A stretch of DNA of 64,000 bases from Hyphococcus luteus (GTDB taxonomy: Bacteria > Pseudomonadota > Alphaproteobacteria > Caulobacterales > Parvularculaceae). A model generated the notes under the pieces. The model did no database searches. It was not told the DNA's origin and saw only the letters and a list, made by a program, of their open reading frames with translations. The stretch spans positions 1 through 64,000 of the forward strand of contig NZ_PJCH01000007.1 in NCBI RefSeq assembly GCF_002943565.1, given 5' to 3'. The position numbers were made by a program, and so were the translations under genes. Positions 3,477 through 17,938 of this stretch are shown piece after piece (positions within the stretch are counted from its first letter, which is position 1; each line of letters begins with the position of its first letter).

Positions 3477-4175
3477 ATGCAGGCAACGCCAACCGTTTCG
3501 CCGTTTACCCAGCCGCAGCAAAGCAGCGGCGCGACAGCGGCCGCAGGCGCAAAGGAAGGGGAGAGCAATCCGGCGCTCAATGCGGCGGACTTCCAGAACT
3601 TCCTGAAGCTCTTGACGGCGCAGCTGCGCAATCAGGACCCGCTCAATCCGGCGGACTCCACCGAATTTGTCGCCCAGCTCGCCCAGTTCAGCTCCGTCGA
3701 GCAGCTGGTCAACGCCAACACCAAGCTCGATAACATCGCTTCGGCCATGGTCGCCGACGGCATCGAAAAATATGCCGGCTGGATCGGTAAAAAAGCCGAA
3801 GCGATAGACGCACCGGCCTATTTCGACGGGACGAACCCGGTGGAATACCGGTTGTCCGGTCTTAGCGAAGCAAGCCGCGTCGAAGCCGTTATCACCGATC
3901 CCGCAGGCCAAGAAGTCACGCGCTTCGATACGGTCAACGGAGCGATGGTTCAGAGCTGGAATGGCGTGGTCGACGATGAATCCGCGGCGCCGGGCGTTTA
4001 CGCCGTGACTGCGCTTTACTATGACGAGGACGGCAAGGTGATTGGCGAAGAAATCGCCAACACATTCGGCGGCGTTCGCGAAGTGCGCCTTGAAGGCGAT
4101 GAACCGTCGATCATTCTCGAAGGCGGCGTCGATCTTGAGCCCGATCAGGTCGCCGGTCTCGGCCAAAAAGAATAA
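3477..4175 (+). CDS. flgD: Hook assembly protein FlgD
   Basis: Scaffold needed to polymerise the hook. 232 residues. The N-terminal motif FLKLLTAQLRNQDPLNP, then STEFVAQLAQFSSVEQLVN (residues about 40-80), is the diagnostic FlgD signature; the C-terminal half is the FlgD Tudor/Ig-like region (VEAVITDPAGQEV, WNGVVDDESAAPGVY). The start is set by AGGGAGACGC nine bases ahead of ATG. It lies 29 bp after fliK and is followed by a strong terminator. Confidence 0.96.
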   Translation: MQATPTVSPFTQPQQSSGATAAAGAKEGESNPALNAADFQNFLKLLTAQLRNQDPLNPADSTEFVAQLAQFSSVEQLVNANTKLDNIASAMVADGIEKYAGWIGKKAEAIDAPAYFDGTNPVEYRLSGLSEASRVEAVITDPAGQEVTRFDTVNGAMVQSWNGVVDDESAAPGVYAVTALYYDEDGKVIGEEIANTFGGVREVRLEGDEPSIILEGGVDLEPDQVAGLGQKE

Positions 4176-15402: not shown

Positions 15403-16170
15403 ATGAGACGCGTAAAGGCGTTTTTGGCGTTGGCGCTTGCGGCGGCGGTGATTTTCATCGCCGAGCCGGCGGCGGCGCAAACGCTTGGGCAAGCGGCCGA
15501 TCCGCTTCGCGAGACCGCTCAAACAGTCGCCGAAGGCGGGTTTTCAAAGCGCATCATCCAGATGTTCCTCATGGTCACGGTGCTGAGCCTTGCGCCCGGC
15601 ATCGCGATGATGGTCACCTGTCTGCCTTTCATGCTGATCGTTCTGTCGATCCTGCGCCAGGGCGTGGGCCTGCAGCAGGCGCCGCCCAATATGCTGATCG
15701 TCAGCGTTGCGATCTTTCTCACCTATTTTGTCATGGAGCCTGTGTTCAAGGACGCCTGGAGCGCCGGTATTCAGCCGCTTCTGGACGGGACGATCAGCGA
15801 GGCGTCGGCTTTTGCGCTCACCATGGAGCCGTTCCGGATGTTTATGGAGGCGCGGGTCGATCCGGGCGCCGTCGACATTCTGATGGATGCGCGGCCGATC
15901 GAGACGGCGCAGGCCGCGGACGGCGCGACGCCGCTGTCCATGCTGGTGCCGGCTTTCGTTCTGTCGGAGATTCAGCGGGCCTTTGAAATCGGCTTTATCG
16001 TGCTTCTGCCGTTTCTGGTGATCGACCTTCTGGTCGCGTCGATCCTGATGGCCATGGGCATGATGATGGTGCCGCCGGCGATCGTGTCGCTGCCTTTCAA
16101 GGTGGCGTTCTTTGTGTTGACGAATGGATGGGTCGCCGTTTCCGGCGCGCTTGTAAGAGGGTATTCGTAA
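15403..16170 (+). CDS. fliP: Flagellar export gate protein FliP
   Basis: Core of the FliPQR export channel. 255 residues. Cleavable signal peptide at 1-25 (ALALAAAVIFIAEPAAAQ), as is usual for FliP. Membrane segments follow, with conserved CLPFMLIVLSILRQGVGLQQ, VAIFLTYFVMEPVF, FVLSEIQRAFEIGFIVLLPF and ASILMAMGMMMVPPAIVSLP. Twenty-one bp after fliN; its stop overlaps the fliG start (TAATG). fliQ and fliR are not in the window. Confidence 0.97.
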   Translation: MRRVKAFLALALAAAVIFIAEPAAAQTLGQAADPLRETAQTVAEGGFSKRIIQMFLMVTVLSLAPGIAMMVTCLPFMLIVLSILRQGVGLQQAPPNMLIVSVAIFLTYFVMEPVFKDAWSAGIQPLLDGTISEASAFALTMEPFRMFMEARVDPGAVDILMDARPIETAQAADGATPLSMLVPAFVLSEIQRAFEIGFIVLLPFLVIDLLVASILMAMGMMMVPPAIVSLPFKVAFFVLTNGWVAVSGALVRGYS

Positions 16171-17291
16171 TGTCGACGGCGCTGCAAAAAGCGGACATGC
16201 GCGGAGGCAAACAGGAGCTGACGCGCGGCGAGATGCGCTATGAGAACTGGTTCACGAAGGCGCATAAGGCGGCGATCGTGCTTGCGTCTTTGAGCGCGGA
16301 AGCCGCTGCGGCGATTGTCGAGGAGATGTCCGACGCCGAGCTGCGCGTTTTTGCGAAAGCGTTTTCCGAACTGAAATCCGTTTCGCCGCAACTCTTGCAG
16401 GCGGTGGCCGAGGAATTCATCGCCGAGGTCGGCCAGGAAGACAACAATCTCGCCGGCGGGCCGGACGAGACGCGCCGCGTCCTCGCGCTGATGGCGCAGG
16501 AGGAGCGGGCGGAGCGCATTCTTTCGGATATGGGCGGAGGCGGAGACTCCGCCGTCTGGCCGCGGATCGAAAAGATCGAAGATCAGGAGCTTGCGGATTA
16601 TATCCAGGCGCAGCGCATGCCGGTCGCCGCCGCCATCATCTCCAAACTGTCTCATGAGAAAACCGCAAGCGTCCTTGACCTTGCCGAAGGCGATTACGCC
16701 AAGGCCGTCCTTCTTGAACTCGCCCGCAAACAGCCGCCTTCGGGCGAAGCGCTGGAGGCGATCGCCAATGTGCTGGAAGAGGAGCTTTTGAAATCTTCAG
16801 GCGGCGCCGATGAAGAAGAGGGGGAAGACGGCGACGGGCCGAAACCCAAAAACAACGCCGGCGCGAAAGTGGGCGAGATCATCAATTACCTGCCGGGCGC
16901 GAAACGCGATGCGCTGCTCGATCACTTTAAAGAAGCCGATCCCGAAATCGGCGCGGCCGTCAGGAAAGCGATCCTCACTTTCGAAGAGCTGCATGCGCGC
17001 ATGCCGGCGGCGGGCGCCACGGCGCTCCTGCGCGATCTCGATCGCGAAGTGCTTTTGAAAGCCATCAAATATGGCGAGACCAATGCGCCTGAAACAGTAG
17101 AGTTTCTGTTCGGCAATATCTCCAAACGCATGGTCGAACAGTACAAGGAAGAACTCGCCGAAATGGAAACGCCCTCAGAAACCGACGGCGAAACGGCGCA
17201 ACGCGAAGTGACGGGCGAAGTGCGCAATCTTGTCGCCCAAGGCGAATTCAAGCTCATTGCTCTACAGGAAGAAGATGCGCCGGCGTCTTAA
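16170..17291 (+). CDS. fliG: C-ring rotor protein FliG
   Basis: Rotor protein linking the MS-ring to the switch and touching MotA. 373 residues from ATG 16170 (MSTALQKADMRGG), chosen over a longer frame because AAGAGG precedes it and it overlaps the fliP stop. N-terminal helices KAAIVLASLSAEAAAAIVEE, middle QELADYIQAQRMPVAAAIIS with SHEKTASVLDLAEG, and C-terminal LDREVLLKAIKYG and FGNISKRMVEQYKEEL all align with FliG. An acidic insertion (GADEEEGEDGDGPKP, about residues 211-225) interrupts the middle region. The stop TAA at 17289-17291 abuts the MITE-like element. Confidence 0.93.
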   Translation: MSTALQKADMRGGKQELTRGEMRYENWFTKAHKAAIVLASLSAEAAAAIVEEMSDAELRVFAKAFSELKSVSPQLLQAVAEEFIAEVGQEDNNLAGGPDETRRVLALMAQEERAERILSDMGGGGDSAVWPRIEKIEDQELADYIQAQRMPVAAAIISKLSHEKTASVLDLAEGDYAKAVLLELARKQPPSGEALEAIANVLEEELLKSSGGADEEEGEDGDGPKPKNNAGAKVGEIINYLPGAKRDALLDHFKEADPEIGAAVRKAILTFEELHARMPAAGATALLRDLDREVLLKAIKYGETNAPETVEFLFGNISKRMVEQYKEELAEMETPSETDGETAQREVTGEVRNLVAQGEFKLIALQEEDAPAS

Positions 17292-17477
17292 GAGCCTGAA
17301 CGAAAATCCGGCAATGCAGCAAAATTACGATGATCAGACGTCAGCTAGCCGCAGCACGGTACGCCGGCAGGCCCTTAATTCTTCTAAAGAGTAGGGCCCG
17401 AGACGCATCGCTTTCCGGCTGACGAACGTCTGACAAACCCTCATTTGCATGGCTTTGGTGAATATTCGTTTGGGCTC
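17292..17477. mobile_element. MITE-like element, 186 bp, with terminal inverted repeats and TAA target duplication
   Basis: Ends GAGCCTGAACGAA (17292-17304) and TTCGTTTGGGCTC (17465-17477) are inverted repeats matching at 11 of 13 positions. TAA stands directly outside both ends (17289-17291 and 17478-17480), as expected for a 3-bp target duplication. Internal dyads share nearly the same centre near 17384: TCAGACGT (17334-17341) with ACGTCTGA (17426-17433), and GGCCC (17370-17374) with GGGCC (17394-17398), so the whole forms an imperfect long hairpin. No open frame of note. The pattern fits a non-autonomous element of IS5/IS1031-like type; the family is inference. It also fills the gap between two convergent genes and could terminate both. 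Confidence 0.72.
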
Positions 17478-17482
17478 TAAGT

Positions 17483-17938
17483 TTATTTGTCGAGAACGCC
17501 CGGCCAGTTTTCCTCGCCGGCGGCGACTAGGCCGGGAATGTCCGCTTCCCAGCGTTTCTGGATCTCGTCATTATAGTTGAGATAAAGCTTGCCTTCGTAA
17601 ATCGTCCAGTTCTCCGGATTGCCGCGGGCGGTGTAGTCTTGCGAAACCGCCCAGGCGCAATAGCCGCCGAATTGGGGCGCGTATTTTTCCGGTTCGGCTT
17701 TGAAGGCGGCGAGATTATCGGCGGAAGCGAAGCGCCATTCCGCGCCTTTATATTCCATCGAGAAGGTCTTTTCGCCCTTCACCGGCTTTCCTTCGGTGAA
17801 ATAGGCGACGGCGTCATAGCCGTCTACGGCGTTGTTTGAAAAAAGACCCGTATAAACCGGATCTTTCGCAAAAGCGGCGCTTGCCGTTGTGGCGGCAAGA
17901 AAGAAGGCGGCGAAAGCGATGACGAAGCGTTTGACCAT
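17483..17938 (-). CDS. Secreted YHS-domain protein
   Basis: 151 residues from ATG 17938 (MVKRFVIAFAAFFLAATTAS). Signal peptide at 1-24. The YHS-like domain covers VDGYDAVAYFTEGKPVKG, YKGAEWRFASADNLAAFKA and PEKYAPQFGGYCAWAVS, with the Cys of the YCAWA segment. Such small periplasmic proteins are thought to bind metal or act near metal transport; no specific substrate is visible. The start was moved from 18031 because the upstream residues are Arg-rich noise. The stop is 5 bp from the MITE-like element. Confidence 0.88.
   Translation of the reverse strand: MVKRFVIAFAAFFLAATTASAAFAKDPVYTGLFSNNAVDGYDAVAYFTEGKPVKGEKTFSMEYKGAEWRFASADNLAAFKAEPEKYAPQFGGYCAWAVSQDYTARGNPENWTIYEGKLYLNYNDEIQKRWEADIPGLVAAGEENWPGVLDK

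Follow-up and report, generated by a model that had tools for sequence, protein, structure and literature searches.

The element that begins at the fliG stop codon of Hyphococcus luteus is probably a copy of a non-autonomous mobile repeat of the Parvularculaceae, ~186 bp in length and composed of two inverted arms of ~88 bp separated by a linker of ~10 bp. Copies were found dispersed at many loci with near-constant length, and their arms keep an end stem, N-A-G-A-G-C-C, whose strands covary, together with a CAGACGT box at a fixed distance. The repeats form a new family of small non-autonomous intergenic mobile repeats, itself a known class. As far as searched, the family has so far been seen only in the Parvularculaceae, and a search of open-licence papers yielded no description of it.

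Within the window (the whole 64,000-nucleotide stretch of DNA analysed), the element together with the TAA on each side spans 17289-17480 and reads TAA-GAGCC…GGCTC-TAA. The 186 bp between the two TNA triplets (17292-17477) begin with GAGCCTGAACGAA at 17292 and finish with TTCGTTTGGGCTC at 17477. The left TAA (17289-17291, plus strand) is the stop codon of the fliG gene (16170-17291), and the right TAA (17478-17480) forms the right edge of the element. The initial annotation had described inverted-repeat ends matching at 11 of 13 positions, flanked on both sides by TAA with the fliG stop codon on the left, and the sequence is exactly so; when the ends are extended, the segments 17291-17317 and 17452-17478 are 74% complementary across 27 nt. 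Based on domain matches, the neighbouring genes encode a protein with the FliG N, M and C domains and, convergently on the opposite strand, a YHS-domain protein. Excision of 17292-17480 puts the fliG stop and the YHS stop (17483-17485) 2 nt apart, in agreement with the near-abutting convergent genes that had been predicted after removal.

Other copies, which the initial annotation had suggested looking for, were found in the same genome. A BLAST search with the element returned seven places at E ≤ 0.001, the window copy included, and five of the seven, again including the window copy, were 82-100% identical over nearly the full length. A scan for the end pattern gave 25 sites, while the same pattern reversed as a control gave 6, and further diverged copies were located from it. 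With a covariance model built from 13 copies, at least 29 distinct places were matched at E ≤ 0.003, plus one overlapping match, the best 150 of 1525 first-look candidates being scored; three of the 29 were shorter than 178 bp and were excluded from the length-based counts. Given this number of genomic copies by both BLAST and the covariance model, the window element is not a chance arrangement. Across all carrier genomes, 66 of the 73 length-eligible copies measured 186-191 bp including the TNA, and the copies tabulated (n = 68) were short, non-coding and dispersed at different loci. Pairwise identity was 45-89% (median 57%) among 26 copies of the H. luteus genome (G000), with medians of 80% in G029 and 89% in G035.

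The model matched 9 of 100 genomes: H. luteus itself, six relatives with strong matches (G009, G011, G024, G027, G029 and G035) and two, G008 and G017, each with a single weak match. Of 289 genomes drawn from across the class, H. luteus was the sole match, the model searches over 40 genomes being run with stricter filters than the smaller ones. When 84,980 species genomes were scanned with a DNA pattern, 38 stretches were found in three genomes, all of them Parvularculaceae or Parvularcula MAGs; such scans are not sensitive to every subfamily, as two narrower patterns matched 5 and 8 of the 29 H. luteus copies and none of eight copies from G011, G024 and G027. No match was found in the plasmid and phage collections (both searched with the window copy, and the plasmids also with one G029 copy) or, using one pattern, in viral contigs.

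AGAGCC marks the outer end and GGCTCT the inner end of each ~88 bp unit, and the two units are inverted relative to each other. In the window copy, arm A (17289-17377, plus strand) has the outer end TAAGAGCCTGA and the inner end GCAGGCCCTTA, which can pair with mismatches, one of them an A-C within the box. The conserved box TCAGACGT of this arm lies at 17334-17341; in the genera compared, the box is ~47 bases away from the outer end. Arm B, an inverted unit of the same kind (17391-17480, minus strand), reads on the plus strand with GTAGGGCCCGA as its inner end and TTGGGCTCTAA as its outer end, and its box (17426-17433) appears as ACGTCTGA on the plus strand and as TCAGACGT on the minus strand. 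The linker (17378-17390), which is ~10 bp in most copies, is 3 bases longer here. Among 107 arms from G000, G029 and G035, representing three genera and leaving aside arms with no recognisable box, the box started at position 47 ± 1 in 99 and the inner end fell at position 82 ± 1 in 97. The internal dyads sharing one centre had been read in the initial annotation as parts of one long hairpin. The window copy does fold far more strongly than 200 dinucleotide shuffles (z -5.7 and -6.5 on the two strands). The dyads themselves turned out to be largely inner copies of the element's own ends, and the element is therefore composed of two inverted ~88 bp units.

Single-arm, truncated and triple-arm forms were also observed, as were tandems sharing one TNA, mostly in G035 and G029. 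The element contains direct repeats ~99 bp apart, so that slippage would be an easy origin for the single, triple and tandem forms. In G035, one copy with a duplicated arm (L009, 1366-1590, contig C42) starts at the stop of an amidase gene (PF01510) and lies directly upstream of the RNase P RNA gene (RF00010, 1661-2117). On another G035 contig (C160, L147), identical partial ends TAAGAGCCTAAACAGAAAAGCA at 3810 and 9408 face each other across ~5.6 kb; their inner flanks are near-identical and each has a tRNA gene (Rfam) on its inner side, an arrangement resembling a large inverted duplication or an assembly effect.

To define which positions are paired, four ends were located in 71 of the 73 length-eligible copies (those on G024 contigs C285 and C291 were dropped, with fewer than 4 of 6 inner-box bases), the inner end being found by the consensus GGCTCT alone with N not used. 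The flanking base N paired with the base N' at the inner end of the same arm in 56/71 and 53/71 copies for the two arms (35 and 29 expected within genomes), and in these 71 copies no flanking base beyond N paired inside the arm. After thinning to 33 representatives below 75% identity, N-N' pairing was seen in 28/33 left and 29/33 right arms (9.2 and 12.5 expected). In the same thinned set, the N of the two inner ends was directly repeated in 15/33 (7.7 expected, P 0.0015), and complementarity of N between the outer ends occurred in 7/33 (8.2 expected). When all column pairs were compared in 82 half-units from 41 copies, N-N' was the top covarying pair (z 22.7). The second pair (z 8.3) was formed by the first stem C and its partner, and the fourth (6.7) belonged to the same stem; the third-ranked pair (z 7.0) was not a stem pair. 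The RNAalifold covariation term for the half-units, +0.62, was not favourable.

The end boxes were also compared. A non-consensus box at one or both ends was present in 34 of 142 arms, matched within the arm in 9 and not in 25. The matched variants were AGTGTC (five arms, G024), AGAGTC (G009), AGGGCC (G027) and AGCGCC (two arms), and no copy had a variant common to both outer ends; in the thinned set, variants were matched within the arm in 8/66 arms and between outer ends in none. The outer ends of a single copy can differ, as in G024, where AGTGTC at one end and AGAGCC at the other each match their own inner end; the outer ends also differ in the copy on G009 contig C34. All eight G024 copies inspected (L098, L106, L111, L211-L215) have AGTGTC or a close variant as the outer box of one arm, and the other arm has AGAGCC in seven and AGTGCC in one.

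The strength of the pairing varied between genomes. In G000, N matched N' in 21 and 22 of 26 copies (7.8 and 8.4 expected) and in G024 in 5 and 6 of 6, with 2 and 2 of 3 in G009 and 2 and 2 of 2 in G027. The values for G029 (16 and 13 of 17) and G011 (4 and 4 of 5) are uninformative, since N hardly varies in these genomes. In G035, where the copies resemble each other most, pairing was found in 6 and 4 of 12 (2.5 and 1.6 expected). The within-arm covariation, insertion-point base included, is clear though uneven.

The single long hairpin was considered as the conserved structure and rejected, with an RNAalifold covariation of 0.03 (13 copies) and two-sided change in 4 of 31 pairs. In its favour, the inner ends of the window copy share a variant, AGGGCC, that the outer ends lack. 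The folding energy lay more than 2 sd below shuffles in 57 of the 65 copies examined, which either fold would give. With the highest covariation lying in pairs at the closing of the single arms, the long hairpin is not clearly the conserved structure.

The target sites of the copies resemble (C)TNA(G), with C before the TNA in 50/68 and G after it in 43/68. TNA was present on both sides in 36/68 copies, the N being identical in 24 of these 36 and complementary in 2. Among the 61 copies with terminal inverted repeats recognisable at both ends, N was the same on the two sides in 34 (16.9 expected), and after thinning to the 33 representatives in 15/33 (8.9 expected, P 0.006). The A adjoining GAGCC and the T adjoining GGCTC were each conserved in 59/61, compared to 50/61 for the outermost left T and 39/61 for the outermost right A. 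Based on these edge-base counts, AGAGCC…GGCTCT is taken as the conserved element and N as the only demonstrably repeated base. The TAA duplication proposed initially is partly supported by the repetition of N beyond expectation; the low conservation of the outermost right A and the stronger pairing of N inside the arm complicate it. A 5-bp CTNAG duplication was also considered and is argued against by copies that lack the flanking C or G on one side only.

The pairing of N with N' can be read in more than one way. More simply, N would form the last pair of the element's own stem, inherited per subfamily or adjusted later. Alternatively, and in our view very improbably, the target would be chosen by pairing: N', at the inner foot of each arm, would act as an internal guide, and the N of the TNA would have to be its complement. 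With the inner ends written as the reverse complement, the left ends of G029 have N = A in 16/17 and an inner A in 17/17, and those of G011 have N = T in 4/5 and an inner T in 5/5. A strict guide is disfavoured because N matches in only 10 of 24 arms of G035 though its copies are the most alike. If the guide reading were true, the element would be structured, non-autonomous and programmable in its target by a single base, the N' of a subfamily setting the N of its insertions.

A related proposal, that the repeat is a single-strand HUH element of the REP/IS200-like kind, in which a tyrosine transposase recognises the two arms in their folded form and the target is read by internal pairing, is also improbable. 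The pairing of a flanking with an internal base does resemble IS608, for which a passage of PMC5934647 describes the reading of a tetranucleotide target by pairing, and REP units are arranged head-to-head as dimers, folding either separately or jointly, as stated in a section of PMC3733652. The partial repeat of N on both sides is not expected of such an element, however, and the corresponding transposase family, PF01797, was absent from H. luteus, G011, G027 and G029; it was clear in G009 and G035, below the cut-off in G024 and present in 21 of the 100 genomes overall. No copy of the element was found at the 10 Y1 loci examined.

The mobiliser was also sought among DDE-type genes. Elements of the IS1031 group have GAGCC-type ends and a TNA target, and the initial annotation had likened the repeat to the IS5/IS1031 elements on such features. 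In this scheme, the repeat is a MITE derived from an IS5-family, IS1031-type element and mobilised by its DDE transposase, which reads the terminal GAGCC and duplicates TNA; we hold this to be unlikely. The GAGCC ends fit the group, as may the TNA target, the repetition of N on both sides agrees with it, and IS5-type gene fragments are present in the H. luteus genome, in which Pfam transposase models detected PF01609 at four places and PF13586 at one weak place (these two models were searched in this genome only). A three-nucleotide target also accords with a passage of PMC2516522, in which IS1031-group elements recognise three nucleotides. Against this scheme, a search for a full IS with matching ends gave none: the end search covered the 10 PF01609, PF13586 and PF13340 loci (one, in G035, cut by a contig end) and detected no matching end pair, and no element copy was found at these loci or among the 20 transposase loci as a whole, the PF01797 loci being checked for element copies only. 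PF13340 gave five matches in 4 of the 7 carrier genomes and none in G029, though that genome is copy-rich. The only IS5-type element for which both ends were seen, in G011 (L114), starts with CTAGGCTCAGGACC. Recognition of terminal repeats would furthermore predict alike outer ends, whereas those of the G024 subfamily differ, each matching its own inner end. Membership of IS5/IS1031, as first suggested, is therefore not supported. The G011 element itself (contig C232, 1410-2262) comprises two frames and has the ends CTAGGCTCAGGAC, which are unrelated to those of the repeat.

The fliG locus was compared with that of relatives. G005, a genome of the same genus, has fliG and the YHS gene in convergent orientation, ~64 nt apart and with no element between them. 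G009 has a longer stretch after fliG with the YHS gene farther off and no model match there, and in G003, G004, G006, G007, G010 and G017 no copy was present 3' of fliG, the YHS gene not being found in the stretch compared. The junction in relatives, a comparison proposed by the initial annotation, was thus free of a copy in G005 and in the other relatives compared. The many scattered copies and the same-genus junction without one together indicate dispersed insertion. They also support the earlier description of a small, non-coding, dispersed element of near-fixed length that starts exactly at the fliG stop. No true empty site was obtained at base resolution, and transposition and target duplication are inferred. 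The C-terminus of FliG is about the same length as in four relatives, so the fliG stop is probably native.

Presence at the same position in all distant relatives, as for a conserved structure, was not seen for the window copy; another copy is common to two species. This copy occupies an orthologous place in H. luteus (L121, 1121-2000, contig C12) and G024 (L213, 1061-2050, contig C186), flanked on one side by a response regulator gene (PF00072, matched in L121) and on the other by a tRNA gene (Rfam, both), and by eye the G024 copy seems to have an additional arm. As this copy is common to G000 and G024, some of the copies are old, and these could be retained because they serve a function.

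The stop codons used by the copies were analysed further. Without any retained TNA, 10 of 25 gene ends that use the TNA as a stop would extend by at least 20 codons. The triplet at the other end of the element was also a stop in 22/25, compared to 17/27 control sides (P 0.04); for the H. luteus genome alone the values were 9/10 and 6/7. Together with the length of FliG, these other-end stops favour a TNA that was present beforehand and give modest support to its having served as a stop before insertion. At another H. luteus copy (contig C12:1018146; L079, 1688-1720), two convergent genes both terminate at the element, and by eye the right-hand gene is about three residues shorter than its G011 relative, its stop being completed by the edge of the element.

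Based on codon-scored gene calls, 6 of 26 H. luteus copies lay inside a called gene, and 10 of the other 20 fell exactly on a stop codon. Of all usable TNA triplets in the window, 46 of 297 lie on a stop codon, relative to which the copies show an excess (P 3e-4). The excess is weak relative to usable CTNAG (4/12, P 0.09) and disappears under a local null of sites within 200 bp, for which 10.5 are expected and 10 were observed. Stop-codon copies numbered 3/14 in G029 (2.1 expected) and 1/11 in G035 (0.3 expected). Special targeting of stop codons was consequently rejected: the local null explains the counts, although the window-wide null does not. Convergent junctions held 10 of the 20 H. luteus copies compared to 10/61 (P 0.004). 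The stop-codon placement fits an ordinary target preference combined with tolerance at convergent gene ends.

The enrichment at convergent junctions also bears on the view that the repeat is a host-maintained structured RNA or DNA element, such as a transcript end or a processing site between convergent genes, dispersed by happenstance. It agrees with this view, as do the stems that covary and the spacing that stays rigid though the interiors have diverged, the good pairing of the stems in G000, where the copies have diverged most, and the retention of one copy at an orthologous site in two species. The weak pairing in G035 and the inner variant shared within the window copy lowered our confidence in the mobile repeat, in the HUH proposal and in the guide, and raised that in a host function slightly. 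A host function is rather unlikely all the same, as few Parvularculaceae genomes have the element, wobble pairs indicate no consistent strand, and a simple scan detected no T-run terminator at the window copy. No Rfam match was obtained at the window at gathering thresholds, and at four loci searched at E ≤ 1 only a tRNA was matched. For comparison, the one T-run stem found in G005 lies within the YHS gene; between fliG and YHS of that genome, a G+C stem was noted by eye alone.

The mobile repeat of two inverted arms is the reading we prefer. An enzyme supplied from elsewhere, with DDE, HUH and other types as candidates, would recognise the arms, folded or paired, as a pair of structured ends and would insert the unit at (C)TNA(G) sites. 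At fliG, the unit would have landed on the TAA stop and restored it at its left edge, so that neither fliG nor the convergent YHS gene would have lost its stop; the empty fliG-YHS junction would then read TTAAGTTTA. Copies would survive mostly where harm is least, which is at a gene's 3' end or between two convergent genes.

The findings add a small mobile-repeat family to a little-studied family of the Alphaproteobacteria and provide a case of paired half ends, insertion-point base included, that covary across diverged copies. Two questions thereby become accessible to testing: the identity of the enzyme that moves CIR-type two-arm repeats, and whether pairing reads the target. The fliG copy may also serve as an example of an insertion into a stop codon passing harmlessly between convergent genes.

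The repeat was finally compared with known systems. The IS1031 group of the IS5 family and the MITEs derived from it are alike in GAGCC-type ends and may be so in their TNA target, but no IS partner was found for the fliG repeat and its outer ends need not match. The REP dimers or BIMEs of the GTAG and CGTC families, as covered in sections of PMC3733652, are likewise inverted palindromic pairs, and their units occur singly, as dimers and in groups. A REP unit measures 20-40 bp, however, and bears a GTAG or CGTC tag, whereas the units of the fliG repeat are ~88 bp with AGAGCC stems, and the REP/RAYT system employs the PF01797 tyrosine transposase, which had no match in the H. luteus genome. MITEs of the ERIC, RUP and NEMIS type are also non-coding, 100-200 bp, dispersed and palindromic; in the relevant passage of PMC2229807 their stem-loop is formed by pairing of the 5' and 3' ends, while in the fliG repeat the clearest covariation is within each half. 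The nearest known kind, by virtue of its two arms, is the CIR of Caulobacter and Brucella, which according to part of the same source (PMC2229807) is alphaproteobacterial and intergenic, with two separately folding arms and a linker. The fliG repeat has the same plan, its arms pairing within themselves as unevenly as described above. The CIR differs in being ~110 bp with a conserved GANTC at the loop; the fliG repeat is ~190 bp and depleted in GANTC, with 31 sites in 73 copies compared to a shuffle mean of 75, and none in the window copy.
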